Source: Bacteroidetes bacterium RIFCSPLOWO2_12_FULL_35_15
Lineage (GTDB): Bacteria; Bacteroidota; Bacteroidia; 2-12-FULL-35-15
Length of the DNA: 32,614 bases
NCBI GenBank assembly: GCA_001769385.1
Contig: MEPB01000011.1
Location: forward strand, 1 to 32,614
Reading direction: 5' to 3'
The notes beneath the pieces were generated by a model. It was not told where the DNA came from. It worked only from the letters and a program-made list of their open reading frames with translations, and searched no databases. A program made the translations under genes and the position numbers. Of the stretch, positions 1 through 32,614 are shown piece after piece. Position 1 is the stretch's first letter, and the number at the start of each line of letters is the position of its first letter.

Positions 1-13
1 ATATTTGAACTCT

Positions 14-78
14 TCCTCTATAATGCACTACTAACAAACAAAGTTAAACCAATTGCTACCTGTTAATATGACATTGCC
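14..78 (-). repeat. Left copy of a 65-bp terminal inverted repeat (probable end of a multicopy element)
   Basis: The reverse complement of this stretch matches 32550-32614 at 64 of 65 positions; the only difference is T at 53 (A on the minus strand) against G at 32575. Both copies begin with ggcaatgtcatattaacagg at their inner edge and run outward to the contig end, and similarity stops abruptly at the inner edge (79 and 32549). That is what is expected when a contig breaks on both sides at copies of the same mobile element. On the minus strand this copy also carries the open codons and TAG that end the right-hand ORF. Bases 1-13 lie further inside the supposed element. I cannot name the family; no transposase is in the window. 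Confidence 0.75.
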
Positions 79-221
79 CTTCAAAGGGGGACATGATCCT
101 GCAAGCATCAAAATTATCGTCATTTTATATTGTTTTTTTTCTATAAAATTACCCCTCGATTGACCACGCAATTTATGTTATACTATATTTTATTTTATGG
201 AAATTTAAACAGACTCTTAAT
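79..221. other. AT-rich intergenic stretch
   Basis: This stretch lies between the left repeat and the end of the PAS sensor gene. It holds a small perfect hairpin (ccctt-ca-aaggg near 79-90) and otherwise AT-rich DNA. On the minus strand it does not continue the upstream protein into a kinase domain in any frame I could read. Confidence 0.5.
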
Positions 222-2525: not shown

Positions 2526-2703
2526 TTTTATAACGCTTTTTGCAATGTCACTATGAATTTTAGATGATTTTGAATAGGTTAAAAGTAAGTGAGGTGATAT
2601 TTCTATTGAATGACGTTGGTCACAAACCGGGATGATTAAAGCAATATGATTTTAAAAAAATTAAATAATTTAAAAACAGGAAAGATGTCTTTGAATTAAC
2701 GAA

Positions 2704-3195
2704 GTCATTTCGCACGGAATGAAATGCAGAGAGAAATCTGTTTATCGAGGATAAGATTTCTCCTTGCAGTCGAAATGACATTTTGGGACTGTCATTTCGA
2801 ACGGAATGAAATGCAGAGAGAAATCTGTTTATCGAGGATAAGATTTCTCCTTGAAGTCGAAATGACATTTTTGGACTGTCATTTCGAACGGAATGGAATG
2901 AAGAGAGAAATCTGTTTATGAGGATAAGATTTCTCCTTGCAGTCGAAATGACATTTTGGGACTGTCATTTCGAACGGAATGAAATGTAGAGAGAAATCTG
3001 TTTATGAGGATAAGATTTCTCCTTGCAGTCGAAATGACATTTTTGGACTGTCATTTCGAACGGAATGAAATGTAGAGAGAAATCTGTTTTCACGAAGATA
3101 AGATTTCTCCTTGCAGTCGAAATAACATTATCGGACTGTCATTTCGAACGGAATGAAATGTAGAGAGAAATCTGTTTATCGAGAATAACATTCGT
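2704..3195. repeat. Array of six tandem 86-89 bp hairpin units
   Basis: Units start at 2704, 2791, 2878, 2964, 3050 and 3139; the last is partial. Each begins gtcatttcgaacggaatg (cgcacgg in the first) and ends tcgaaatgac plus a short linker ending in ggact. The outer arms gtcatttcga/tcgaaatgac pair perfectly in most units, and an inner pair gagaaatct/agatttctc pairs too, so each unit can fold as a long hairpin. Short in-frame ORFs through the array are repeat artefacts. A single, more perfect relative of the unit lies at 4463-4521. The array fills most of the 728-bp gap between the PAS gene and the FKBP cluster. Similar REP-like palindromes occur between genes in many Bacteroidota (established knowledge, not checked here). 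Confidence 0.92.
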
Positions 3196-3253: not shown

Positions 3254-4435
3254 CTATTTTACTTCTATCAATTCAACATCAAAAGTCAGATCAGCTTTTT
3301 CAGGGATCATTGGCGGACGGCCTGGCTCCCCATACGCTAATACATAAGGAATGATCAAACGCAATTTATCGCCTACCGTCATTAATGCAATTCCTTCTTC
3401 CCAACCCGGAATAACCATTCCTTTTCCTAATTGAAATTCAATTGGTTCACCACGTTCAACTGAGGAATCAAACATTTTACCATCAGCAAGGTATCCTGAA
3501 TAATGTACTTTCACGGTTTTACCTGCTTCTGCTTTTACTACACTTGAACTTTTATTGATCACATAATATTTCAATCCCGAAGCTGTTGACTTCGCTTCTT
3601 TTCCTGTAATATCAAAAAGTGGTGGAGCAGCAATCGGTTGAATATCTGTAATTTCCACATCAAAAATTACATCTGCTTTTTCAGGAATCTGTGGTGGAAT
3701 TCCTTTTTCACCAAATGCAAGTTGATATGGAATAATGAATTTTGCTTTTTCACCTTTGTTTAACAGTTGAAGTCCTTCATCTAATCCCGGAAATAATTGT
3801 CCCTGACCAACCTTTACTGTTAAAGGTTTTCCTCTTTCAATGGACGAGTCAAACATTTTACCATCTATCAAAAAACTATTGTAATTAAAAGTTACTTTTT
3901 TCCCGGAAGCTACTTTCTCCCCATCTTTACGTTGGATCATAATATATTTCAAACCGCTTGCAGTTTTAATTGTATCTTTTCCTTTCACATCCCATGCTCT
4001 GATACCTTCCACCACATCTAATAATTCTATATCAAATATAAGTGTTGAATTAGCAGGGATCTTACCCATTTCCTGAGCACCATATCCCAATTCGGGACCA
4101 AATTTAATTGTTGCTTTATCACCTGCCTGTAGCAATTGAAATGCTTCATCCCAGCCTTTTATCACTTGCCCTGCTCCTAACTTAAAAGAAAATGGTTCTC
4201 CGCGTTTTACAGAACTATCAAATACTGTATCGTTGGTTAACTTTCCTGTATAATGCACTATAACTTTATCACCAACCAGTGGCTTTTTTCCATTTCCTTT
4301 TTCGGTAATGGTGTATTCTAGACCTGATGCTGTTTTCACTGTTTTAGGCTTTTTTACTTTTTGGCTTTTTGCTTTTTCCTGAGCACTTACAGCTAAAACT
4401 GTAAAAGTCAAAATGAGGGTTAATACTTTTTTCAT
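3254..4435 (-). CDS. Exported triple-domain FKBP-type peptidyl-prolyl isomerase
   Basis: This 393-residue protein has a Sec signal peptide (MKKVLTLILTFTVLAVSAQ, no lipobox Cys) and then three FKBP domains at about 38-140, 150-265 and 285-393. Domains 1 and 3 keep the usual pocket residues: HYTG or HYSG, FDSS, VIKGW or VIPGW, and YG before the IP loop. Domain 2 is altered: VIxGW is LFPGL and AYG is AFG, so its Trp floor and Tyr are lost. It probably binds substrate more than it catalyses (inference). It is the last of four consecutive FKBP genes, separated from the one before it by 102 bp with a hairpin, and followed by a clear terminator. The predicted location is periplasmic, where it would help fold exported proteins. 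Confidence 0.9.
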   Translation of the reverse strand: MKKVLTLILTFTVLAVSAQEKAKSQKVKKPKTVKTASGLEYTITEKGNGKKPLVGDKVIVHYTGKLTNDTVFDSSVKRGEPFSFKLGAGQVIKGWDEAFQLLQAGDKATIKFGPELGYGAQEMGKIPANSTLIFDIELLDVVEGIRAWDVKGKDTIKTASGLKYIMIQRKDGEKVASGKKVTFNYNSFLIDGKMFDSSIERGKPLTVKVGQGQLFPGLDEGLQLLNKGEKAKFIIPYQLAFGEKGIPPQIPEKADVIFDVEITDIQPIAAPPLFDITGKEAKSTASGLKYYVINKSSSVVKAEAGKTVKVHYSGYLADGKMFDSSVERGEPIEFQLGKGMVIPGWEEGIALMTVGDKLRLIIPYVLAYGEPGRPPMIPEKADLTFDVELIEVK

Positions 4436-4462
4436 CTGCGAATTTATTTTTTATTTTAAGCT

Positions 4463-4521
4463 ATTTCGACCGAAAAGAGAGATCTCTTTTTATTTTTGAG
4501 ATTTCTCTTTTCGGTCGAAAT
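4463..4521. repeat. Perfect 18-bp-arm hairpin between FKBP genes
   Basis: The arms atttcgaccgaaaagaga (4463-4480) and its exact reverse complement (4504-4521) flank a 23-base centre that itself contains gatctc/gagat. It lies between the stop of the 322-residue FKBP gene and the start of the triple-FKBP gene. The tttcga...tcgaaa ends match those of the 2704-3195 units, so it is a single copy of the same general repeat class. It could attenuate transcription between the two genes. Confidence 0.85.
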
Positions 4522-4537
4522 GAAACTAAGATTTTTT

Positions 4538-5506
4538 TTATTTACCGGGGTGTTTTACACTAACTAATTCTACTTCAAATACAAGTGGAGAAAATGGAGG
4601 GATTGGCCCTGCATTTTGCTCTCCATAGGCGATAGAAGAAGGCAAAACAAGTAGTGCTTTTGTTCCGGGTGTCATTAAGGCAATAGCTTCTTCCCAACCT
4701 TTTATAACTTGTTGTTGTCCCAATGGGAAAGCAATTGGTTCGTAAGGTCTTCTTTCATCATATACTCCCGCTTCTTTGGCAACCGATTCAACACTGGTAT
4801 CGAATACTTTTCCATCTAACAAACGACCGGTATAATTTACTTTTACTGTATCTCCGGAAACAGGTTTTGCTCCTTTACCTTTTGTTTTCTCAACATAATA
4901 CAAGCCGCTTTCTGTTGGCTTTACAGTAATTTTATTATCCTCTAAATATTTTGCAAGTGCTTTTGGCTCTTCGTTCTTTCTCAGCTCCAACAACACCTTT
5001 TGCTCTTCCATTTTTTTGTTTTGCTCCTTTTCAACTTCTTCTTTCGTAGTAACTTTTTCAAGTTTTGCTTCAAAAGTTAAAGTGCTTCCTTTTGTAATAT
5101 ATGGAGGAAGTTCTTTTACCTGAAATGTTTTGAAATAAACTGAATCCGCACTAACAATAAAACTGGCACTATCTCCAACAGACATCATAGCCAAAGCATC
5201 TTCAAAACTCCCTTTAAAAGTAGATTTCCCTAAAGGGAATTCAATAAAACTACTACCGTTCGGATTCTTTTTTGAATCGAATAGAATAGAATCCTTTCCA
5301 TTTTTGCTGACAGAATAGGACATGATAACTTTTACAACATCGCCTTCTTTGGGTTTAACACCATTTTCGTTTTGTTTATAAAACTTTGAATACAAACCAG
5401 ATTCTGACTTTTCGTAGCCGGGATATGGCGAGTTTTTACATGAAGTGATCGCTAACACAGCACCAATAGCTGTAAATGCAACTTTTTGAGTGAATGAAAT
5501 TTTCAT
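4538..5506 (-). CDS. FKBP-type peptidyl-prolyl isomerase lipoprotein (two domains)
   Basis: This is a 322-residue protein. The N-terminus MKISFTQKVAFTAIGAVLAITSCK carries a lipobox (ITSC), so it is a predicted lipoprotein. The N-terminal half (about 45-150) is FKBP-shaped but degenerate (FDSKKNPNG, FKGSFEDAL, GDSASFIV) with no Tyr/Trp pocket. A charged linker (EEVEKEQNKKMEEQK) leads to a canonical C-terminal FKBP domain (about 205-320) with NYTG, FDTS, VIKGW, AYGE and IPPFSPL. It lies 9 bp downstream of the next FKBP gene, so they are surely co-transcribed. The 298-residue neighbour has the same cryptic-plus-canonical layout and is a likely paralogue. Confidence 0.9.
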   Translation of the reverse strand: MKISFTQKVAFTAIGAVLAITSCKNSPYPGYEKSESGLYSKFYKQNENGVKPKEGDVVKVIMSYSVSKNGKDSILFDSKKNPNGSSFIEFPLGKSTFKGSFEDALAMMSVGDSASFIVSADSVYFKTFQVKELPPYITKGSTLTFEAKLEKVTTKEEVEKEQNKKMEEQKVLLELRKNEEPKALAKYLEDNKITVKPTESGLYYVEKTKGKGAKPVSGDTVKVNYTGRLLDGKVFDTSVESVAKEAGVYDERRPYEPIAFPLGQQQVIKGWEEAIALMTPGTKALLVLPSSIAYGEQNAGPIPPFSPLVFEVELVSVKHPGK

Positions 5507-5515
5507 TTTTTAATT

Positions 5516-6412
5516 TTATTTTTTGGTTAGGTTAAGTAATTCTATTTCGTAAATCACAGTTGAATATGGTGGAACTATATTTGTTGAAGAACCACTTTCT
5601 CCAAAAGCAAGTTGCGAAGGTATAATAAATTTTGTTTTGGAACCTTCATTCATTAAACTAATTGCTGTTTCAATTCCTTTAATAACTTGTTCCTGTTCAC
5701 CAATTATATATTCCAAAGGCTGAGCCCTGTCATAGGTAGATTCAAATTGTTTGCCATTAAGAAAAAAACCTTTGTATTGAATTTTTACCAGGTTTCCTGC
5801 TTCAGGGAATGCACCTGTACCTTGTTTTATCGGCAAATAAAACATTCCGTTTTCAATAGGAAAAAAGGAGGTACGACTCGTATCCAAAAATAATTGTAAT
5901 TTTCGCTGCTCCTCTATATCTCTGTCGGCAACTAATTGTTGATATTTCCTTAATTCCGATTCGTATGTTTTTTCAGTTAAAATAGAATGCAGTTTAACAT
6001 CCATTTTTACCATACTGCCGGGTTTTAAAAACAGGGGCAAATTCGTTTTAAAAAATTTTTCGAATAATGAATCGGCATTAACAATAAAAGAAACACTGTC
6101 GCCCGAATTCATATTGGTTAATCCTTCTTCAAAACTTCCAATGAATGAAGAATGTTTAAAAGGAAGAATTACTTTTCCTGTTTCATTTGTTGAATAGGTA
6201 TCAAAAAAAATGGAATCTTTTTCGGTTTTATAAGTAATGATCAATTGAAGGTAGTCCCCTAAAGAAGGTTTGGTCTTTCCATCACCTATAAATTGAAGTT
6301 TGTAAAACAGACCTGAATTGGTTTCTGTATATCCTTTATAGGTAGAATTATTCAAGCAAGAAGATAAAACTATTGCTATAATTAAAATATATAAACTACT
6401 GTTTTTAAGCAC
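5516..6412 (-). CDS. FKBP-type peptidyl-prolyl isomerase lipoprotein, divergent (two domains)
   Basis: This 298-residue protein has a short signal with lipobox (VLSSCLN). Like its neighbour it has an N-terminal cryptic FKBP-like domain (about 40-145; FFDTYSTN, SFIGSFEEGL, GDSVSFIV), a coiled linker, and a C-terminal FKBP domain (about 190-296). The C-terminal pocket is partly changed: VIKGW reads VIKGI and AYGE reads AFGE, so catalysis may be weak or absent while binding is kept (inference). Its start lies 1 bp after the stop of the upstream GldI-like gene, and 9 bp separate it from the next gene, giving a tight operon. Confidence 0.87.
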   Translation of the reverse strand: MLKNSSLYILIIAIVLSSCLNNSTYKGYTETNSGLFYKLQFIGDGKTKPSLGDYLQLIITYKTEKDSIFFDTYSTNETGKVILPFKHSSFIGSFEEGLTNMNSGDSVSFIVNADSLFEKFFKTNLPLFLKPGSMVKMDVKLHSILTEKTYESELRKYQQLVADRDIEEQRKLQLFLDTSRTSFFPIENGMFYLPIKQGTGAFPEAGNLVKIQYKGFFLNGKQFESTYDRAQPLEYIIGEQEQVIKGIETAISLMNEGSKTKFIIPSQLAFGESGSSTNIVPPYSTVIYEIELLNLTKK

Positions 6413-6413
6413 G

Positions 6414-6953
6414 TTATTTTAATGATAATAATTCTAGTTCATACAAAACAGAAGCATGAGGAGGTATTTTGCTTTCATCCCCGATTAAACCATGAGCAAG
6501 ATAAGAAGGGAGAATAATAGTTGCTTTATCACCAACATGCATATACTGAATTCCTTCATGCAAACCACTTTCTATATTATCTTTTCCGATTAAAAATTCT
6601 TTAGGGCCTGTTGAATCAGATGAATAACAAAGAGTTCCATCTAACAAACTAATTTTATAGTTTACTTTTGCCCGCTGATTTACTTGTGCCAATGCTCCAT
6701 CTCCCTTTTTAGTGATCATATAACGTAATCCTGTTCCGGTAGTAATCATTTTCCAGCCGCGATGAGCCACATATTGATCGATCTCATCACTTTCCTGTTT
6801 AACATACATTTTATTAGCCTCTACCAGTTTGTCCTGAAAATCTTTACTGTAAATATTGGTTTGCTTGGCTGTTTTCTTATGCGCATCACCACAGGCCAGG
6901 AATAGCCCTGAAGTCATCAAAAGGAAAAGGAAATAATGTAGTTGAGGGCGCAT
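6414..6953 (-). CDS. GldI-like FKBP-type prolyl isomerase lipoprotein
   Basis: This 179-residue protein starts MRPQLHYFLFLLMTSGLFLACG, with lipobox FLAC. One FKBP domain covers about 75-178 (VNYKISLLDGTLCYSS, ESGLHEGIQYMHVGDKA, YLAHGLIGDESKIPPHA). Length, lipoprotein signal, the helical stretch before the domain and the divergent pocket resemble GldI, an FKBP-like lipoprotein needed for gliding in Flavobacterium johnsoniae (established for that organism). A DHH phosphoesterase directly upstream is, to my recollection, also a common neighbour of gldI. It is the first gene of the tight FKBP operon. The orthology call is inference, so I give no symbol; the FKBP-family call is firm. Confidence 0.82.
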   Translation of the reverse strand: MRPQLHYFLFLLMTSGLFLACGDAHKKTAKQTNIYSKDFQDKLVEANKMYVKQESDEIDQYVAHRGWKMITTGTGLRYMITKKGDGALAQVNQRAKVNYKISLLDGTLCYSSDSTGPKEFLIGKDNIESGLHEGIQYMHVGDKATIILPSYLAHGLIGDESKIPPHASVLYELELLSLK

Positions 6954-18499: not shown

Positions 18500-21400
18500 A
18501 TGAGAAAGACAATTACAAAAAAAATTATTTTCTTTTTCGCTTTTATTTTTTCTTTTGTTTTTGAGATCTCAGAAATAAAAGCACAATCCTCAGATTTTCC
18601 CACAACATATGAACTAAACCAAAAATTAGCTCATTTAGATAGTATAGCTTTTTACAAATCTTCACATCCGGAACTATTTAACATTCAGGATATTGACAAA
18701 AAGTTGTCTTTTGAAAAATTACAATTACCTCTTCAACTTAATTCATCGTTGACTACAAATCCGCTTTGGCAAAATTCGGAGGTCCCACAAATGCGTTCAC
18801 AAACTACACCTCTTTTGTTAATGACTACTGGTCCTGAACAAAATTGTGCATCCGGAATAAATGTTTGCTCCCAAACTTATACGCAAGCCGCTTCCTATAC
18901 CGGACATGGTAGTATTCAGGAAGTAAATGGTACCTGCCTTTCCACTCAGGAAACCAATTCTGTTTGGTATATTTTTACTGTTCAAACATCCGGTACATTT
19001 GGATTTACATTAGTAACCACAAAAGATTATGATTTCGCCTTGTATAATATTACTGCTATTGGTTGTGCAGGTGTTCCTTCTGCTAGTCCTGTACGATGCA
19101 ATTTTTCTGCTACTTACGGTAATACCGGGATGTCACCTGCAGGAACAAACCCTTCAGAAGGTGCAGGCGGAAGTAAATGGTCAACTGAACTTGCTGTTAC
19201 AGCAGGACAAACATACGCGCTCATCATTGATAATTTTTCGGCCGATGCCACAGGATACACACTTAATTTCACTAACACAGGCGGTTATGCTTCTATCTAC
19301 GATATTACTCCTCCTACCCTTTCATCAGTTGTAAATAATTGCAATAGCACAGTTACACTTACACTTTCCGAACAGATACTTTGTTCTTCCATTCAAACAT
19401 CAGCTGCATATGATTTTAATATCACCGGCCCTGCTGCAATGAGTGTTACTTCAGAAACAGGTACTGCCTGTACTTCAAGCAATATCAGTAATCAAATTAC
19501 ACTAGGAATAAGCAGCCCTGCTGTTTCCGGAACCTATACGATACATGTGCAAAATGGTGGGGATGGCAATACCCTACTCGATAAATGTGGAAATGCAATG
19601 TCCGCGGCACAAACCATTACATTTACCTATCTTGCACCTATAACAGCAACAGCAACACCAGCGGCCGTTTGCGCAAGCGGATCATCCACATTAACTGCTA
19701 CTAATATTGCAGGGGCCACTTATGCATGGACCCCTTCCGCAAGTTTGACAAACCCGGCAATTTACAATCCTGTTGCCACTCCAAATGCAACAAGTACTTA
19801 CCAATGCCTTGTTACCTACGGAGGTTGCACAAAAGTGGCAACAACAACATTAACTGTTTCTCCAACACCTATTGCAAGTATAAATCCTATGAATCCTGTG
19901 CTTTGCAGTGGAACAACAAGCCTTACTGCGTCTGCAACTAATTGTGCAGGATGTGTGTACAATTGGACAGGAGGTTATGTTGGAACAGCAAACCCCACTC
20001 CTGCTGTTGGTGCCGGCACATACAATGTTACTTCAACTTCCGCAACCGGCTGTGTAAGCAGTTCTGTTTCATCAACGGTTTCTCTTGCTTCTGCGCCTCC
20101 CGCCAACACTTGTAATATTTATTATGTTACTCCGGCCGGAGCTGGAACAATGGACGGAACAACAATTGCTAATGCAGGAAACGCAGCTACATTATCAACT
20201 ATTTTGAGCAATGTAGCATGTAACGGAGCTACTATTGAAATGGCAGTAGGCATTTATTCCATTACGGATGCACTTAATGTTAGCAGTAACACCACAATAG
20301 AAGGAGGATACAACAGTACATTTACAACCAAGACAAGTGATTTTAGTGGTGGAGCAAATTCCACAACTATTCAAAGAAATACCACTCCGGATGGTGGCAG
20401 CGGTTTGAATGTAACTGCCATAAAAATGGCTGCTTCGGCAACTAATTTCAGATTACAGGATATTCGCATCGAAATGCCTAATGAAGCGGCAGGTAGCGGA
20501 AAATCCAATTACGGTATTTATATGAATAATTGTTCTAACTACAATATAGTAAGGACGTATGTTTCAAGTGGAAATGCTGGCTCAGGAGCAAATGGTGCTG
20601 CTGGTGCTGCTGGTACTTCTGGAAATTCGCCTGTTACAGCACAAGCTGGTGCATCCGGAGGGAACGGATGGTCGGATCCTGGTACTTGGGGAGGATATGG
20701 GGATTCGGGATGGGGTGGTGATGGAGCAGGTACTGCAGGGTCTTCGGGAGCCGGGGTAGATTATCATGGTGGAGCAAATCTTGCAGGCGGTGCAGGAGGA
20801 AATGCAGCCTCTTTTAGAAACGGTGGTGGTGGTGGCGGTGGAGGTAGTGCTGGATATAATAGTGTAGACGGAGCAAATGGAGGCAATGGAGGTACAGGTG
20901 GTGGTGGAGCGGCAGGTGGCACAACAGCAGGCGCTGGAACTACAAATAATTGCAATTGCTCTGATGCTTCTTCAGGGGCAAATGGTACCGCAGGAGCTGT
21001 TGGCAGTGTGGGTTCAGCAGGAGCAGCTGGTTCAACAGCCAGCGGATATTGGGTGCCGGGTGCACAAGGTGGTACGGGAGGAGATGGAGCCGGTGGCGGT
21101 GGTGGAAAAGGAGGAGGAGGAGCCGGAGGAGAATGGGATAGTTTTATTTCTTGTGTAGCCGGAACTGGTGGTGGTGGTGCTGGAGCCGGTGGTGGAGGAC
21201 AAGGTGGAACCGGGGGGACCGGAGCATCTGGAGGCGGCTCAACCTATTGTATATTTATCTTTAATAATGGATCAACCGGAAAAGTTATAGATTGCCAACT
21301 AACAAATGGGACTGCAGGAACCGGTGGAACCGGTGGAACCGGTGGAAATGGAGGAACTGGAGGGGCTGGTGCCGGAGGCGGTAGCGGTAACGGTGGCGAA

Positions 21401-22870
21401 TGTAACGGGGGTGCAGGTGGTAACGGGGGTGCAGGTGGAGCAGGAAGTGCAGGTGAAAGTGTTGCTGTTAAATTTGTTAGCGGAACGGCTCTTACTACTA
21501 ATAGTGCCCTTACCTTAACAACTCAGCCAATAATTATTGCTGGCGATGGTACGAATAGTTATACAAATTGTACTACCATAAATATGAATATGACTACTGC
21601 TGCAGGCTCTCCTGATTGGACAACTTCAGCTGCTCCTTTGACTGGAACAGGTTCTCCAAAAACTGTCGCATATACTACCACAGGTAGAAAAGATGTTGTG
21701 CTTGCTTCTGATATAACAACAAATTATTCCGCACAAACATTTTCTAATACTGTTGCTACCGGGAATGTTACCGACAATTGCGGTGGGCAAATAAATAATA
21801 CTATTACTGCTAGTGGTTATGTAGGAAATGTTGCCACAAGTGGAATTGTAGTGAGAATTACCGCGAGCAACCATACTTGGTCAAATGATTTATCATATTT
21901 TCTTGTGGCACCTAATGGTACTACAATATTAGGTCTTACAAATAATAGAGGTAATGGTGCTGGTTGCTCCTGGTCTAATGTTGGATTTAGTGATTCCTAT
22001 GCAGGCGTTATGGGAGCAGCTTGTCCGGGTGCCGGAAGTAATTGGAAACCAGAAACCGCAACGTATACCGACTGCGCAGTCACTTCAAATGTCACTTCTT
22101 TCGGTGCCATTGGAGGTGGCTCAATGAACCCTAACGGTAATTGGACTCTTCGAATTGTTGACAATGTAAGTGGTGATGTTGGCGCAGCAATAGCAATTAG
22201 TGGATGGAATATTTCTTTCCCTGCCTATTCAACTACTTCCTCTGGAACTAATACTTACACAGGCTTTAATAACACCATTACTGCTGCCCCTGCAGCCGGA
22301 AGCATACTTGCTTCTCTGACTAGCGGCTGCCCGGGTACTTATTATTTCGCCAGCAGTTTAGGAAGCACACCTGGCTTTACTTATACCTGGTCAACTCCGG
22401 GTTTACCAGCAGGTGTTACAGCAAACATTGCTTCTTCAACTTCAACCGGAACCAATATTACATTTACTAACTCCAATGCAACCAATCAATCGGTAACTGT
22501 TCGCTTAACAGTTTCCAGTAAATGTTGTGGTGCCTTAGCTCCAATTGATATTACTTTTACGGTTGATGCCTTGCCGGCTGTTCCTACAGCATCTGCAACA
22601 GGTAGTCCTATTTGTCCGGGTGGCTGCGCTACCCTTAATGCAACGCTTCCGGCAGGTGCCAGCTTTGAATGGTATGATGCTGCTTCAGGTGGCAGTTTGC
22701 TCACTTCGGGTGCAACATATGTGGTGTGCCCTGCCTCTACTACAAATTATTATGTGCAGTCAATTAATGCAAACGGCTGTATTAGTGCCACCCGATTTAC
22801 ATTACCTGTTACCGTTACTGCCACTACTCCACCAACGGCAAAACCCTGTTTCACTATGTTCAGCCGCTAA
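18500..22870 (+). CDS. Giant multidomain T9SS adhesin, N-terminal part (frameshifted)
   Basis: This is 1456 codons in one frame, with a signal peptide to about residue 29. Domains in order: a CUB/PPC-like secretion-associated module (about 110-265, ending WSTELAVTAGQTYALIIDN); an SbsA-like Ig domain (about 270-380); two Ig/PKD-like domains (to about 535); a right-handed beta-helix segment (about 535-690: IYYVTPAGAGTMDGTTIAN, NTTIEGGYN); a ~300-residue Gly-rich stretch (about 692-990); a P-domain of the proprotein-convertase type (about 1057-1250: SNDLSYFLVAPNGTTI, NGNWTLRIVDNVSGDVG); and two PKD/Ig-like domains. The frame ends at 22870, soon after a shift near 22840-22846. The true product is about 2080 residues and continues in the next entry. 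Confidence 0.85.
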   Translation: MRKTITKKIIFFFAFIFSFVFEISEIKAQSSDFPTTYELNQKLAHLDSIAFYKSSHPELFNIQDIDKKLSFEKLQLPLQLNSSLTTNPLWQNSEVPQMRSQTTPLLLMTTGPEQNCASGINVCSQTYTQAASYTGHGSIQEVNGTCLSTQETNSVWYIFTVQTSGTFGFTLVTTKDYDFALYNITAIGCAGVPSASPVRCNFSATYGNTGMSPAGTNPSEGAGGSKWSTELAVTAGQTYALIIDNFSADATGYTLNFTNTGGYASIYDITPPTLSSVVNNCNSTVTLTLSEQILCSSIQTSAAYDFNITGPAAMSVTSETGTACTSSNISNQITLGISSPAVSGTYTIHVQNGGDGNTLLDKCGNAMSAAQTITFTYLAPITATATPAAVCASGSSTLTATNIAGATYAWTPSASLTNPAIYNPVATPNATSTYQCLVTYGGCTKVATTTLTVSPTPIASINPMNPVLCSGTTSLTASATNCAGCVYNWTGGYVGTANPTPAVGAGTYNVTSTSATGCVSSSVSSTVSLASAPPANTCNIYYVTPAGAGTMDGTTIANAGNAATLSTILSNVACNGATIEMAVGIYSITDALNVSSNTTIEGGYNSTFTTKTSDFSGGANSTTIQRNTTPDGGSGLNVTAIKMAASATNFRLQDIRIEMPNEAAGSGKSNYGIYMNNCSNYNIVRTYVSSGNAGSGANGAAGAAGTSGNSPVTAQAGASGGNGWSDPGTWGGYGDSGWGGDGAGTAGSSGAGVDYHGGANLAGGAGGNAASFRNGGGGGGGGSAGYNSVDGANGGNGGTGGGGAAGGTTAGAGTTNNCNCSDASSGANGTAGAVGSVGSAGAAGSTASGYWVPGAQGGTGGDGAGGGGGKGGGGAGGEWDSFISCVAGTGGGGAGAGGGGQGGTGGTGASGGGSTYCIFIFNNGSTGKVIDCQLTNGTAGTGGTGGTGGNGGTGGAGAGGGSGNGGECNGGAGGNGGAGGAGSAGESVAVKFVSGTALTTNSALTLTTQPIIIAGDGTNSYTNCTTINMNMTTAAGSPDWTTSAAPLTGTGSPKTVAYTTTGRKDVVLASDITTNYSAQTFSNTVATGNVTDNCGGQINNTITASGYVGNVATSGIVVRITASNHTWSNDLSYFLVAPNGTTILGLTNNRGNGAGCSWSNVGFSDSYAGVMGAACPGAGSNWKPETATYTDCAVTSNVTSFGAIGGGSMNPNGNWTLRIVDNVSGDVGAAIAISGWNISFPAYSTTSSGTNTYTGFNNTITAAPAAGSILASLTSGCPGTYYFASSLGSTPGFTYTWSTPGLPAGVTANIASSTSTGTNITFTNSNATNQSVTVRLTVSSKCCGALAPIDITFTVDALPAVPTASATGSPICPGGCATLNATLPAGASFEWYDAASGGSLLTSGATYVVCPASTTNYYVQSINANGCISATRFTLPVTVTATTPPTAKPCFTMFSR
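20575..21470 (+). repeat. Glycine-rich low-complexity coding region (PGRS-like)
   Basis: About 300 codons rich in GGT/GGA/GGC encode runs such as GGGGGGGGS and GGTGGTGGNGGTGG. Tandem DNA repeats include a ggaaccggt 9-mer repeated three times near 21318-21345 and an exact 18-bp repeat at 21403-21420 and 21421-21438. The region is strongly G-biased on the coding strand, unlike its neighbours. Confidence 0.9.
22840..22847 (+). other. +1 frameshift site (aaaaccct)
   Basis: In frame 0 the codons read GCA AAA CCC TGT and the frame soon stops at 22870. Reading AAA CCT GTT instead (one C skipped) gives AKPVSLCSAANATLSVNA, which continues seamlessly into an intact T9SS protein. The site is CCC-T, where slippage of tRNA-Pro into the +1 frame would give the same amino acids. 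A sequencing or assembly error, a real indel, or programmed frameshifting remain possible. Confidence 0.75.
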
Positions 22871-24743
22871 TGCAACTCTTAGTGTAAATGCACCTATTGC
22901 AGGTGCAAGCTATAATTGGTACAGCAGTAATTGTTCCGGGTTACTTGGATCAGGTCAAACATTTGCAACTTTTGTTGGTGCCACTACCACGTATTATGTA
23001 ACCGTTACGTTGCCCGGTTGTAATGAAAGTACGTGTACACCCGTTACTGTTACACTCACAGGTACGCCTGCAAGCGTAACCTGGAATGGAGCAAATACCG
23101 GTGGTTTGAATAACTGGTTCAACAATTTGAACTGGACACCTAACTGTCTTCCTTCTTGTGGTACTAATGTAAGTATCCCAAGTGGTACACCAAATTCACC
23201 TGACATTGGTTTTAGTGCCACATATGGAGCCGCAGGAAGCAAAACCCTAACTTTAGCAAGTGGTGCAACTTTATCATTTTCAGATCCCAAAGCTGAACTG
23301 GATGTTTGCGCGGACTTTATTCAGAATGGAACTGTCACCACGAACGGCAAAGGCAAAATCGTTTTCATGGGCAGTGTAACACAAAATTTTACGTGCAGTA
23401 CTACCGGCTCAGGCGACTTAAACGAAGTGGTACTTATAAATACAGCAACTCCTCCCCTGCTTAAAATTAAAGAAGCTGCAGGCGGTACTAATAAGGATAT
23501 GAATATTACTTCGGGATTCACTTTTCAAAGCGGAATAGTATTTACAGAAGGTATCCGAAAATTAGTAATAAAAAATTCATCCCCTGCATCCTTAAGTGGC
23601 GGAAGCGTTAGCGGATACGTTTGGGGAAGATTAAACCGCTATGTTATTAGCGGAAATGCCTATGATTTCCCAGTTGGAGAAACCCCTGTTACGGCTACAG
23701 CACCAAACTATCCGTATGAACTCCTGAATATTAATTTCACCTCTATTACCGGATTAAATGACCTTACTGTAAAATTTGAAAATCCGTCCACTAATGCAAT
23801 TAACACTATTGCAAGTAGCACTACGAGTCCTGGTTTATCATTAAATGGTGGTACAGAAGGGACCTTCTCCCCTTTAATTAATTGTGGTGGTACTAATGCT
23901 GGTGTTGGAGTTAACTCAATGGGTGGCGTTTGGACAGTATTACCGAATGCAGGAACAGCAACCTATGATATTACGCTATATGGAAGAAATTTCGATAATG
24001 CAGGTGCCGGACCAACCTACTGGTCGGTATTAAAGAGAAGCACCTATACTAATTGCGCAACTTCGCCTAGCTGGGCATTGGATGGAGTTTACTCAACCAA
24101 TGCTATTTCAGGAAATTTGGTTTCGGCTTCCCGAACCGGTATGTCAGGTTTTTCACAATTTGCTATTGCCCGAACAACGGTTGCTTTACCAATTGAATTA
24201 ATTGCTTTTGATGTTACTTGTACAAAAGAAAATGCAAAAATTTCATGGGCAACCGCTTCCGAAATTAATAATAATCATTTTACATTGGAAAGAAGTTGTG
24301 ATGATCTGAATAGCTTCACAACCATTGCCACTATACAAGGAGCAGGAAATAGCACCTCCCTGATGCACTATTCATTTACGGATACTGATTTCCCAGGAGC
24401 CATTTGTTACTACCGTTTATCACAAACTGATAATGATGGCACTACTACTTACTTTAATATAATTGCAGCAAGTTGTGAATTAAATTCAGTCTTTAATTTG
24501 AATAATGTATTGCCTAACCCAACAACGAATGAACTCCATGTATTATTTACCAATAATATGAACGAGCCTGTTTATATCACAATCACAGATATGCTTGGAC
24601 AGGAATTTTTGAACAAAGAAATTTTATGTGAAAGAGGTTTAAATTCGATCAGTCTGGATTTGAGCACTTATAGTGAAGGTGTATATTTCTTAAAAATAAA
24701 TAATGGCAAAAAATCATTTATTAAAAAGATTGTAAAAAATTAA
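22845..24743 (+). CDS. Giant multidomain T9SS adhesin, C-terminal part
   Basis: This is about 632 codons in the frame one base forward of the preceding entry; it has no start of its own. It opens mid-domain with PVSLCSAANATLSVN, an Ig-like repeat similar to the last repeats before the shift. A jelly-roll/beta-helix-like part follows (TPASVTWNGANTGGLNNWFN, ASGATLSFSDPKAELDVCADF). Then come the ELIAFDVTCTKENAKISWATASEI module and a type A sorting domain (about the last 80 residues: LPNPTTNELHVLFTNNMNEP, GVYFLKINNGKKSFIKKIV). The reading frame extended upstream from 22845 overlaps the N-terminal part but gives no plausible protein there. Confidence 0.82.
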   Translation, partial: PVSLCSAANATLSVNAPIAGASYNWYSSNCSGLLGSGQTFATFVGATTTYYVTVTLPGCNESTCTPVTVTLTGTPASVTWNGANTGGLNNWFNNLNWTPNCLPSCGTNVSIPSGTPNSPDIGFSATYGAAGSKTLTLASGATLSFSDPKAELDVCADFIQNGTVTTNGKGKIVFMGSVTQNFTCSTTGSGDLNEVVLINTATPPLLKIKEAAGGTNKDMNITSGFTFQSGIVFTEGIRKLVIKNSSPASLSGGSVSGYVWGRLNRYVISGNAYDFPVGETPVTATAPNYPYELLNINFTSITGLNDLTVKFENPSTNAINTIASSTTSPGLSLNGGTEGTFSPLINCGGTNAGVGVNSMGGVWTVLPNAGTATYDITLYGRNFDNAGAGPTYWSVLKRSTYTNCATSPSWALDGVYSTNAISGNLVSASRTGMSGFSQFAIARTTVALPIELIAFDVTCTKENAKISWATASEINNNHFTLERSCDDLNSFTTIATIQGAGNSTSLMHYSFTDTDFPGAICYYRLSQTDNDGTTTYFNIIAASCELNSVFNLNNVLPNPTTNELHVLFTNNMNEPVYITITDMLGQEFLNKEILCERGLNSISLDLSTYSEGVYFLKINNGKKSFIKKIVKN

Positions 24744-28163: not shown

Positions 28164-31100
28164 ATGAAAAAAATCTTACTAACAATTTTTACCATTGTAT
28201 TTCTGCTTTTGATAAGTTACTTTTCAAAAGCTCAGGTAAGTGGATATACATTTGCACCTTCTGCTGGAACTTACACCGCCATAACAGGAGGTACAATTTT
28301 AAGAGATGGTACGGCTGCTATGGACAGTTGGGTATCCGGTGCTATTACAATTCCTGCCTTCACGTTTAATTGTGTTTCTTATACAACTGTATATGTTACT
28401 TCAAATGGACTTTTAACTTTAGGAGCTCCTGCTCCAAGTTCTACTGCATATAACGGAATAAGTTCAGGCTCCGGCTCTGGAGTTTGCATTTGCCCCTTCA
28501 ATGCAGATATATTAAATGTAAATTCAACCGCTACTTCAGAAATTCGCTGGCAAACAGTAGCCCCTGAAGTTATTTTTCAATGGAAACAAATGAAGAGGTA
28601 TTTAGCAACTGAAAATTTTAGTTTTCAAGTTAGATTAAATACTACAACCGGAGCAATAAAATTTGTTTATGATGCGGTTACAGCTAACCCTGATAATAGT
28701 ACTTCGTATCAACCAGAAGTTGGAATTAGGACATCTTCAACAGATTACAAAAATATTAAAATTGGATCAGGAGCTGAAACGTGGGCCGCTCCATTAGCCG
28801 GTACAGCAAATACAGATATATGCAGGTTTACAAATACTGCTACCGCCAAAAAATTTTTAGATGGACAAACTTACACCTGGACCCCACCTGCAGCCTGTGC
28901 TGGTGCTCCTGCTGCCGGAACAGCTACACCATCTCCTGCTTCTGTTTGCACTGGAAGCACCTCCACCATAACTTTGACAGGTTATACTACCGGTTGTGGA
29001 ATTTCTTATCAATGGCAGTCTGCTTCAGCAATTGGCGGACCTTACACGGATATTGGCTCCGCCACTTCTACTTCTTACCTCGCAACTCTTTCAGCAACCA
29101 CCTATTATCGATGTATCACGACCTGCTCCAATGGCGGAGGCACCAATACTTCAAGTATAGCTACCGTTACTGTTACGGCTCCTACTTACGCAACCGTCCC
29201 GTATTCTGAAAGTTTTGAAGGCCCCTGGATAAGCAGTTGTGATACCAGGGAAATCCCTACTATAAACTGGTTAAATACACCCAAAACAGGGGACAGATCC
29301 TGGCGCAGGCATGATGATGGAGTTGCTGCAGCAGGATGGTCTTCCAATACAGGCCTTTATTCTCCGGTTAGTTCTGCCGGTTCCTACTCAGCTGAATTTA
29401 ACAGTTTTAATGCCGCATCTGGTACAACCGGATCTTTAGATTTATATATTGATATGAGCCCTGCCGGCACAAAAACATTGCTGTTCGATTATATTAATCC
29501 GGGCACAGCAACGGCTAACGATAAAATGGTGGTTCTTTTGTCAACCGATGGAGGTTCTACATTTCCTACCACCTTACTCACGTTGCCAGCACCAGTTGCA
29601 TCATGGACAACCCAATCAGTTAACATTGCCTCTACATCTGCGACCTGTGTAATTCGTTTCTTGGCGACTTCCGATTATGGATCTACAAACGAAAATACAG
29701 GGATTGATAATTTATTAGTTGTTTTACCTTGCGCAGGAACCCCGACAGCCGGTAATGCAGTTGCAACACCTGGGTCAATCTGCCCTGGGCTAACATCTGT
29801 TCTTACATTAAGCGGATCATCGGTATCAGGTGGATTAACATATCAATGGCAATCTTCCCCTAACCCAATTACAGTCTGGACAAATATTGGAGGGGCAACA
29901 TCATCTTCTTACAGTACCTCCCCAACAATCAGCACCAATTGCCGTTGTGTTGTCACCTGTTCGAATAGCGGATTATCCGCTAATTCTGCCAGTGCATTAG
30001 TAACTGTAGATATTGGTACTTATGCAACCTTGCCCTATACACAGGGTTTTGAAGGTCCCTGGTTAAGTGTTTGTAATACCCGCGATGCTCCTGATAATTC
30101 ATGGCGGGTGAGCCCACTTACAGGAAATCGTTCGTGGCGAAGGGATGATGATGGTATAGCGGGTGCCGCATGGAGTTCAAGTTTAGGAGCATATTCCCCT
30201 TTGTTTTCTGCCGGTGCCCATTCTGCCAGGTATCACGCATACAACACTTCCTTAACAGGTTCACTTGATTTATATGTGAATTGCAGCCCTGCTGGAACTA
30301 AAGTATTGTGCTTTGATTATATTCTTAATTCCTTAAGTTCAGCAAGCATGAGCGTATTACTTTCAACAGATGGTGGCGCTACATTCCCTATTACATTGGG
30401 AAGTATAACAACTGCTGATTCCTGGACTAATTTTTCTTATAATATAACTTCCACATCCGCAACATGTGTAGTGAGGTTTTTGGCCGACGGAGATAATGGC
30501 TCTTATGATATTGGCATGGATAATCTTTCTTTATCTGTACCTGGAGTTCCAAATTGTGCAACATACACCACACCGGCAAATGGAGCATCAGGCATTACTT
30601 GTGGAATTAACGCTTTGATGAACTGGACACCAAACGGCCCAACCTGCTACCCACCAACCAGTTACGATGTTTATTTCGGTACTGCGGCATCACCCCCTTT
30701 TGTGGTAAATCAAACAGGAACCCAGTATAACCCTGGTACCTTATTACCAAGTACCACTTATTATTGGAAAATTCTTCCCCGGAACGCATCAGGTGCTGCT
30801 GTTTGTGCCACCATCTGGTCATTCGCAACCGGTGCTTCATTCAACGCTGCTCAAACTTCACCCCCTATTACAGATGGTTTTGAAACCTGTACCGACTGGA
30901 CAATTGTTAATGGGGCCCAACCCAATATATGGCTCAGAGGTACTGCAACAGCATATACCGGTTCTCGTTCAATGTATATCAATAATACCGGATCGAACAA
31001 TAATTATAATGAAAACGCGGCTTCCACAGTCCATTTTTATAAAGACATTATTTTCCCGGCCGGAAATAATGATTTCTCCCTGAAATTTTATTGGAAGGGA

Positions 31101-32597
31101 GAAGGAGAAAGCACTTATGATTACTTAAGAGTATTTTTGGCTCCTACTTCTATTACTCCGGCAGCCGGAACAGAAGTAAGTTCAACTTATGAACTAACAC
31201 CTTATATTTACAACCAATCAGCTACCTGGCAATATTTTTCATATCCAATGCCTATTGCCTGTGGAGGCAATGAAACATGGCGTTTAATTTTTTCCTGGGA
31301 TAATGATGGGTCAGGAGGCACCCAACCGCCTATTGCTGTTGACGACATACAGGTAACTATGACGGCCCGTACCGGAAGCACTTGTGCAAATCCTGTAAAC
31401 ATCACTTTACCTTTCACCCGAACAGGAGAAACCACCAATTGCATGAATAATGATTATACCACTGCAAGTACTGCATCCTGTGGTTCCAGTTACGAATCAG
31501 GCAACGATAAAGTTTATAAAGTATTGGTTGGAGCAGCGGGTTGTATAACCGTTTCACTTACAAATACCAGTTCAACATCCCTCGGTTTTCAGATCTACAG
31601 CGGCTGTCCGGATGTAGGCGGAAGCACCTGTATTTTTAATTCTACCACAGGCGCTCCCGGCAATACATTAACAACAGATGTGAATATTCCTTCAGCAGGA
31701 TATTATTACTTAATCGTTGATAACTGGTCCGCACCAACTTATGTTGATTATGATATTTCCATCACCGCACCCGGAAGCAACACTGCCAGTGACCCTCCTT
31801 GCGGTGCCGTTCCTTTAACCCTTGGTATTGCAGCTGCAGGTGATAATACCTGTACAAATGGCAGTGGGGAACCTGCCGCACCGGGATGCTGGACAAACGG
31901 ATTGATCAACACCGTCTGGTACAAAGTAGTTTTACCTGCTTCCCAGGATATATCTATCCGTACAACAGCCGGCTCACTTTTAAATACACAAATTGCGCTT
32001 TATACCGTTGGTGCTTGTGGTACTCCCGGCACATTTACACTTAAAGGATGCAACGATGATGCCCCTAGTTGTAATACCGGTTATGATAATTCGGAACTCA
32101 CAGTACTTAATGTTGCCGCTGCCGGCACAACGGTATATATTGTAGTTGACGGGTTTCAGGACCAAGCAGGTACTTTTTCAATTTTAGTGGTTGATGGGAA
32201 TAATGGTTCCCCGGTCTGGCCACCAATTGTCGGACAAGATTGCGGGCCTGTATTAACTTATACTAACCCGGTTTGCGGGCAAACCACATCTATTGACAAT
32301 CCGGGGTATTTTGCTTTTGGAAATTTCTGTGATTTTGATGGTACAGGTATCTGCCTTACTTCCGGTGAAAAAAGTTCGGTATGGTACACCATCAATGTAA
32401 ATGCGAATGGCACCCTGGCATTTGATATTGTTCCGAATGATTATGGTAATCCTAATCCGCTTACAGGGCAAGTAAATACCGGCTGGACGACTTCCGGTGA
32501 TGAAACGGATTATGACTGGGCAATCTGGAAATGGGAATCGGCTTGTGATGGCAATGTCATATTAACAGGTAGCAGTTGGTTTAACTTTGTTTGTTAG
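28164..32597 (+). CDS. Large multidomain surface adhesin, truncated at the right end
   Basis: This is a 1477-codon ORF with a signal peptide to about residue 24. Order: a NIDO-like N-terminal module (about 25-245); an Ig-like domain (250-338); two homologous ~175-residue MAM/jelly-roll-like modules (about 340-523 and 615-792, sharing FEGPW..C.TR..P and SWRR.DDG.A) with an Ig-like domain between; an FN3-like domain (795-890); another jelly-roll (902-1070); then three PPC/CUB-like modules (about 1070-1205, 1209-1350, 1355-1462). The third breaks off after DYDWAIWKWESACD. The last 15 residues (GNVILTGSSWFNFVC) and the TAG come from the inverted-repeat copy at 32550-32614, not from the adhesin family. 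No sorting domain is present. Confidence 0.85.
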   Translation: MKKILLTIFTIVFLLLISYFSKAQVSGYTFAPSAGTYTAITGGTILRDGTAAMDSWVSGAITIPAFTFNCVSYTTVYVTSNGLLTLGAPAPSSTAYNGISSGSGSGVCICPFNADILNVNSTATSEIRWQTVAPEVIFQWKQMKRYLATENFSFQVRLNTTTGAIKFVYDAVTANPDNSTSYQPEVGIRTSSTDYKNIKIGSGAETWAAPLAGTANTDICRFTNTATAKKFLDGQTYTWTPPAACAGAPAAGTATPSPASVCTGSTSTITLTGYTTGCGISYQWQSASAIGGPYTDIGSATSTSYLATLSATTYYRCITTCSNGGGTNTSSIATVTVTAPTYATVPYSESFEGPWISSCDTREIPTINWLNTPKTGDRSWRRHDDGVAAAGWSSNTGLYSPVSSAGSYSAEFNSFNAASGTTGSLDLYIDMSPAGTKTLLFDYINPGTATANDKMVVLLSTDGGSTFPTTLLTLPAPVASWTTQSVNIASTSATCVIRFLATSDYGSTNENTGIDNLLVVLPCAGTPTAGNAVATPGSICPGLTSVLTLSGSSVSGGLTYQWQSSPNPITVWTNIGGATSSSYSTSPTISTNCRCVVTCSNSGLSANSASALVTVDIGTYATLPYTQGFEGPWLSVCNTRDAPDNSWRVSPLTGNRSWRRDDDGIAGAAWSSSLGAYSPLFSAGAHSARYHAYNTSLTGSLDLYVNCSPAGTKVLCFDYILNSLSSASMSVLLSTDGGATFPITLGSITTADSWTNFSYNITSTSATCVVRFLADGDNGSYDIGMDNLSLSVPGVPNCATYTTPANGASGITCGINALMNWTPNGPTCYPPTSYDVYFGTAASPPFVVNQTGTQYNPGTLLPSTTYYWKILPRNASGAAVCATIWSFATGASFNAAQTSPPITDGFETCTDWTIVNGAQPNIWLRGTATAYTGSRSMYINNTGSNNNYNENAASTVHFYKDIIFPAGNNDFSLKFYWKGEGESTYDYLRVFLAPTSITPAAGTEVSSTYELTPYIYNQSATWQYFSYPMPIACGGNETWRLIFSWDNDGSGGTQPPIAVDDIQVTMTARTGSTCANPVNITLPFTRTGETTNCMNNDYTTASTASCGSSYESGNDKVYKVLVGAAGCITVSLTNTSSTSLGFQIYSGCPDVGGSTCIFNSTTGAPGNTLTTDVNIPSAGYYYLIVDNWSAPTYVDYDISITAPGSNTASDPPCGAVPLTLGIAAAGDNTCTNGSGEPAAPGCWTNGLINTVWYKVVLPASQDISIRTTAGSLLNTQIALYTVGACGTPGTFTLKGCNDDAPSCNTGYDNSELTVLNVAAAGTTVYIVVDGFQDQAGTFSILVVDGNNGSPVWPPIVGQDCGPVLTYTNPVCGQTTSIDNPGYFAFGNFCDFDGTGICLTSGEKSSVWYTINVNANGTLAFDIVPNDYGNPNPLTGQVNTGWTTSGDETDYDWAIWKWESACDGNVILTGSSWFNFVC

Positions 32598-32614
32598 TAG
32601 TGCATTATAGAGGA
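32550..32614 (+). repeat. Right copy of the 65-bp terminal inverted repeat
   Basis: The sequence begins ggcaatgtcatattaacagg exactly at a codon boundary (32550) of the adhesin frame, supplies 15 codons and TAG (32595-32597), and runs to the last base. It is the inverted copy of 14-78 with one difference (32575). The preceding domain stops in mid-fold, so 32549/32550 looks like an insertion junction. Confidence 0.75.

Follow-up and report, generated by a model that had tools for sequence, protein, structure and literature searches.

The window analysed here, the whole stretch of 32,614 nt, is contig C11 of a draft genome (5.39 Mb in 110 contigs), and the question arose of why one short sequence is found at both of its ends in opposite orientation. 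The original prediction had described a 65-bp sequence, inverted and identical in 64 of 65 bases, and an inverted-repeat search of the window reproduced it: bases 14-78 (minus strand) match bases 32550-32614 (plus strand) in 64 of 65 positions (arms of 65 nt, 98% complementary). The next-longest inverted pair in the same search spanned only 46 nt with 72%, so the match at the ends is far beyond chance. It stops at base 14 because the contig end at 32614 truncates the right copy; the left copy runs to base 1. The two copies (loci L013 and L022) differ by a single base, A versus G. The features of both ends are compiled in Table 1.

Table 1 Features at the two ends of the window
Feature	Position	Strand	Basis
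3' end of an IS1595-family insertion sequence, truncated by the contig end, right tip at base 78	1..78	+	All 78 nt recur identically at 14 further places of the own genome; 88% identity to the complete copy (L024:1501-1578)
Transposase gene, final 21 codons and stop (IFELFLYNALLTNKVKPIATC*)	1..66	+	Translation; shares 95% identity with L024 transposase residues 283-303
Right terminal inverted repeat	56..78	-	Positioned as in the complete copy (L024), whose repeat has 23 bp
Presumed 8-bp target duplication (CTTTGAAG, reading towards the element)	79..86	.	Matching 8 bp at three left-end junctions, partner ambiguous
Half of a ~130-bp intergenic palindromic repeat, diverged copy, with the element inserted within	79..138	-	Match of the repeat probe to C11:77-138 (85%, E 9e-14); alignment
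Presumed secreted-protein gene, first 1462 codons, interrupted by the insertion	28164..32549	+	ORF list, junction flanks, joined frame
8-bp target duplication CTTGTGAT	32542..32549	.	Same 8 bp at a left-end junction, the end of contig C103
Second copy of the right end of the same insertion sequence, opposite orientation, truncated by the contig end	32550..32614	-	Inverted-repeat search and matches in the own genome

The 78-nt end was found in at least 26 places of the own genome, a lower bound since the best 40 of 63 candidates were scored; 25 of these are contig ends, each running outward, and one lies inside contig C98. The prediction of a multicopy element on both sides of the window, set against an occurrence at two places only, therefore survived. 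The sharp inner edges it had described (bases 78 and 32550) correspond to an insertion-sequence tip, whose first 17 bases are exact in the 25 contig-end copies and carry one mismatch in the C98 copy. Beyond the tip the DNA varies between copies, save where several copies sit in one intergenic repeat. An A-to-G variant near the tip is present in the right-end copy of the window and in the copy at the end of contig C28 (L017), which perhaps mark a minor sub-lineage. With the left end of the C98 copy as probe, the opposite tip was detected at no fewer than 24 further contig ends (25 matches including C98, after which E falls from 2e-15 to 0.04; best 40 of 79 candidates scored). The 110 contigs have 220 ends, and one element accordingly explains at least 49 of them; 25 right-end plus 24 left-end contig ends correspond to approximately 25 unassembled copies in addition to the complete one. 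Five more contig ends (C107, C93, C68, C102 and C48) halt 3 to 11 bases into the tip and may belong to the same element, with traces too short to give the side.

As had been anticipated, the assembly stops inside the element: 24 of the 25 contig ends carry 39 to 94 bases of it and C110 carries 26. The repeat would exceed what the assembler could span, so that nearly each copy would appear as two contig ends with a few dozen element bases. The sole internal copy, in C98, is 965 bp long (L024:1501-2465; right end at C98:2680-2757), and the right end of this copy is 88% identical to the 78-nt end of the window. It contains one ORF, encoding a transposase of 303 aa, between imperfect terminal inverted repeats of 23 nt (87%), and is flanked by an exact 8-bp direct repeat, CACGGAAA (8 of 8 positions matching). 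Hence both the transposase and the target duplication that the original prediction had proposed to look for are present in this single complete copy, from which the anatomy of the element is taken. The family was assigned with Pfam and NCBIfam profiles: the transposase matched the DDE domain PF12762 (DDE_Tnp_IS1595, E 1.3e-40), NF033547 (E 5.4e-64, 216 bits against a cut-off of 75) and, at residues 12-55, the N-terminal zinc ribbon PF12760 (E 4.6e-9). The traits that define the IS1595 family, that is, DDE domain, zinc ribbon, 8-bp duplication and inverted repeats around one gene, were all found and, judged by these profiles and this anatomy, the C98 copy is an additional member. It differs from the dominant version (88% identity over the 78-nt right end, 96-99% over left-end stretches). 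The assembly contains the dominant version in no complete copy, and its body is probably the same as that of this diverged copy. The near-identical ends suggest that the element is active now or was so recently.

Relatives were sought in other genomes. The exact 24-nt tip gave no match in viral_contigs and genome_contigs, collections outside which the own genome perhaps lies. A transposase protein scan of genome_contigs confirmed 6 loci out of 15 candidate stretches; the nearest relative (L136, from the Bacteroidota MAG C13_metabat.bin.23) has a transposase 89% identical. Among the 59 genomes searched, a transposase match at E <= 1e-30 was present in the own genome and 13 others, the best in the other 58 being 49% identical. 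A search for inverted repeats flanked by a nearly exact 8-bp direct duplication covered 20 of the 25 relative loci (all but L131-L134 and L141), and 18 of the 20 gave nothing; L129 and L137 yielded weak, implausible pairs only, and the C98 copy stood out clearly in the same search. At L136 (1461 onward, with loci L142-L146) the 8-bp flanks are inverted repeats of each other, each reading CTCTCAAG in the direction of its tip and each accompanied by C-rich DNA, and this locus therefore falls outside a search for direct duplications. Recombination between copies or an assembly merge possibly produced these inverted flanks.

The element would move by insertion catalysed by its DDE transposase, with duplication of 8 bp of the target. 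Each right-end junction was compared with the left-end junctions for an identical 8-bp flank. Exactly one partner was found for 14 of the 25 right-end contig junctions; another eight have shared partners, being ambiguous because several junctions carry the same 8 bp, and three have none. The 26th right-end junction, that of C98, pairs with its own left end. On the other side, the left-end junction L069, which has a variant tip, matches L025 and L026 in its 8 bp, both among the eight ambiguous ones, and L053 (C5) has no partner. An 8-bp match by itself can be due to chance, the more so as the sites look alike. The matched duplications nevertheless yield 14 candidate contig joins, and the one between C11 and C103 is additionally supported by a reading frame.

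The right end of the window has a single partner, the end of contig C103. The ORF as assembled stops at 32597, within the element. When the flanks were joined with one copy of the duplication, the frame was open for 2152 aa from the ATG at 28164, with the insertion after codon 1462. No Pfam match was obtained for the first 1462 codons, the part in the window; the part on C103 terminates in a Por_Secre_tail domain (E 1.5e-14). The insertion thus appears, on this predicted frame, to deprive a large protein of the tail that presumably sorts it for type IX secretion. The same domain was seen elsewhere in the window, at 18500-24743, where two long ORFs in different frames overlap at 22545-22870; Ig_7 was found in both, Por_Secre_tail in the second only, and a frameshift within a single gene could account for the pair.

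Near the other end of the window, six tandem copies with a unit spacing of 86-88 bp lie at 2654-3192, with a PAS/CHASE3 sensor ORF on one side and an FKBP-type isomerase ORF on the other. Four neighbouring ORFs for FKBP-type peptidyl-prolyl isomerases, one with three such stretches, occupy 3254-6953.

At the left end itself, the element lies in a palindromic repeat. The 8 bp next to the tip, CTTTGAAG, fit three left-end junctions (the start of C103, C91 and C96); C48, whose few tip bases could come from either side, may be a further partner. The start of C13 is a rival of the window for these partners. Of 26 right-end and 25 left-end junctions, 51 in all, eleven lie in or at the edge of one family of ~130-bp intergenic repeats. 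The 112-nt probe for this repeat was pieced together from flanks belonging to two separate junctions and may not represent a single locus. In these 11 the element is inserted in both orientations at the same point within <=1 base, at CCCCCTTTGAAG or, on the opposite side, at the corresponding CCCCCTTCAAAG; two of them (C28 and C91) match the probe across only 24 to 26 bases. Several contig ends terminate within the repeat. Intact copies are L087, L088, L089, L090 and L100, and alignment of five intact copies revealed approximately 20 additional bases that make a longer hairpin at the insertion point. As single-stranded DNA, the joined short form of 30 nt had a folding z of -0.41, with 66 of 200 shuffles equally good; the 122-nt long form, which is a composite of the intact copies rather than a single locus, gave a good fold (z -4.62). 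A requirement of the element for an extruded hairpin is not claimed, given the unremarkable folding of the short form.

We put at about 97% the probability that two copies of one multicopy IS1595-family insertion sequence flank the window in opposite orientation and that the assembly broke there. Each flanking copy would turn its right end, that is, the 3' end of the transposase gene and the right inverted repeat, towards the window. Inverted, near-identical copies such as those on either side of the window are able to recombine in principle, and the window might instead be an invertible segment, a 32-kb stretch flipped by recombination between the opposed copies. This is very unlikely: the right copy keeps its matching 8-bp duplication on C103 as well as the continuous frame, so that the present order there is the order before insertion, and no recombinase or invertase was named by Pfam scans of 18 ORFs of the window. 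Even less credit is due to a chimeric join or a palindromic assembly artefact as the source of the shared end, although contigs that terminate in inverted duplicates are a known type of artefact. The two copies differ in a base, the variant being common to the copy at the C28 end; moreover, each junction has a flank of its own, and 23 further contig ends bear this tip. Inversion and chimeric join, which had both been put forward as alternatives, are unneeded at the right end, where duplication and frame are restored via C103; at the left end, where several contigs fit equally, a local rearrangement is still formally compatible with the data.

C103 partners the right end of the window by its end and is by its start among the candidates for the left end, as expected if the window and C103 made up a single circular replicon, joined on either side through the element. 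We regard such a replicon as unlikely, since the 8 bp at the left end are equally those of C91 and C96, with C48 as a possible further fit and the start of C13 as a competitor. The window also contains a gene for a nucleoside diphosphate kinase, which is usually chromosomal. Contig ends with inverted copies of one short sequence are to be read here as an unassembled insertion sequence and not as signs of circularity or inversion.

This insertion-sequence reading describes an ordinary assembly effect; the target preference is moderately interesting. It was analysed at the 15 sites with matched duplications (14 contig pairs and C98). C was found at positions -12, -11 and -10 in 12, 14 and 11 of the 15 sites, respectively (background in the surrounding flanks 0.164), and G at the second and third base past the duplication in 14 and 13 sites (background 0.168). 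Across all junctions, 25 of the 26 flanks on the right-end side and 22 of the 24 on the left-end side had C at -11; these flanks are not independent of each other. The duplication leans to CTTNNAAG. None of the 15 sites matched the strict consensus; mismatches numbered 1 to 4, and 6 at the right site of the window, which lies in a gene and is the weakest. Two-fold symmetry around the duplication amounted to a mean of 6.0 of 14 pairs, compared with 3.9 at 612 control positions, and 6 or more pairs were symmetric at 10 of the 15 sites versus 18% of the controls. A two-fold symmetric target is expected from a transposase dimer.

The strict pattern CCCNCTTNNAAGNGGG had no match in the assembly, the backward control likewise none, and it matched none of the 15 joined sites, which lie outside the repeat, exactly (1 to 6 mismatches). 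With two mismatches it was found at 78 places per strand, several of them element junctions, compared with 102 for the control. Candidate sites are thus not over-represented and, as the backward control also gave zero, the zero is no proof of saturation. With the repeat probe, the junctions of the 15 sites gave nothing beyond a weak 22-nt match (start of C45, E 0.15). A strict REP-targeting insertion sequence, with all copies in the repeat, was considered and fails, since these 15 sites lie outside it, one of them in the gene of the window. The odds appear even that the transposase intrinsically prefers two-fold symmetric sites of approximately CCC-N-CTTNNAAG-N-GGG, with short C-run/G-run palindromes in intergenic repeats as landing sites and CCCCCTTTGAAGGGGG, the form of one repeat that fits best, present here only as occupied halves; the C-run/G-run target would then be read by the transposase itself. 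In the MAG of L136, all five junctions observed likewise have a C run just ahead of or at the start of the duplication, a small but independent replication. The choice of target, a C run, 8 bp and a G run with repeated use of one intergenic palindromic repeat, seems to be the sole mildly unusual trait of the element.

For the IS1595 family, PMC8101967 describes an 8-bp target duplication as usual and an N-terminal zinc ribbon in all subgroups except IS1016. The element resembles the non-IS1016 subgroups in its single transposase gene, zinc ribbon, ISXO2-like DDE domain, 8-bp duplication and tips starting with GG, and is placed here at the family level. PMC12561309 describes ISApl4, a member of the IS1016 subgroup, which has inserted 39 times in one genome, is flanked by 8-bp direct repeats and has 5' and 3' ends that map to many contigs of draft assemblies. 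Both elements are thus multicopy, with 8-bp direct repeats and ends scattered over draft contigs, but ISApl4 as described there has 712 bp and perfect 14-bp inverted repeats, whereas the C98 element has 965 bp and imperfect 23-bp repeats. The duplications of ISApl4 are preferably A/T-rich (PMC12561309), in contrast to the C-run/G-run sites of the present element with duplications tending to CTTNNAAG.

Use of palindromic intergenic repeats is reported in PMC1525189 for members of the families IS3, IS110, IS4, IS256 and IS5; IS1016 elements appear in its table with low ratios near REPs (2/17 and 1/3, both from a single Neisseria genome). Among the titles listed from the open-licence literature none dealt with palindrome targeting by IS1595 elements, which is no claim of its absence from print. 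If the palindromic preference is intrinsic, an IS1595-family case would join the insertion sequences that land in intergenic palindromes. There is a likeness to ISRm22 (IS4 family), which inserts right at the palindrome axis, and ISPsy8 (IS3 family), both of which hit one position in a palindromic intergenic repeat again and again (PMC1525189); unlike in these REP-targeting elements, just part of the junctions of the present element lie in the repeat.
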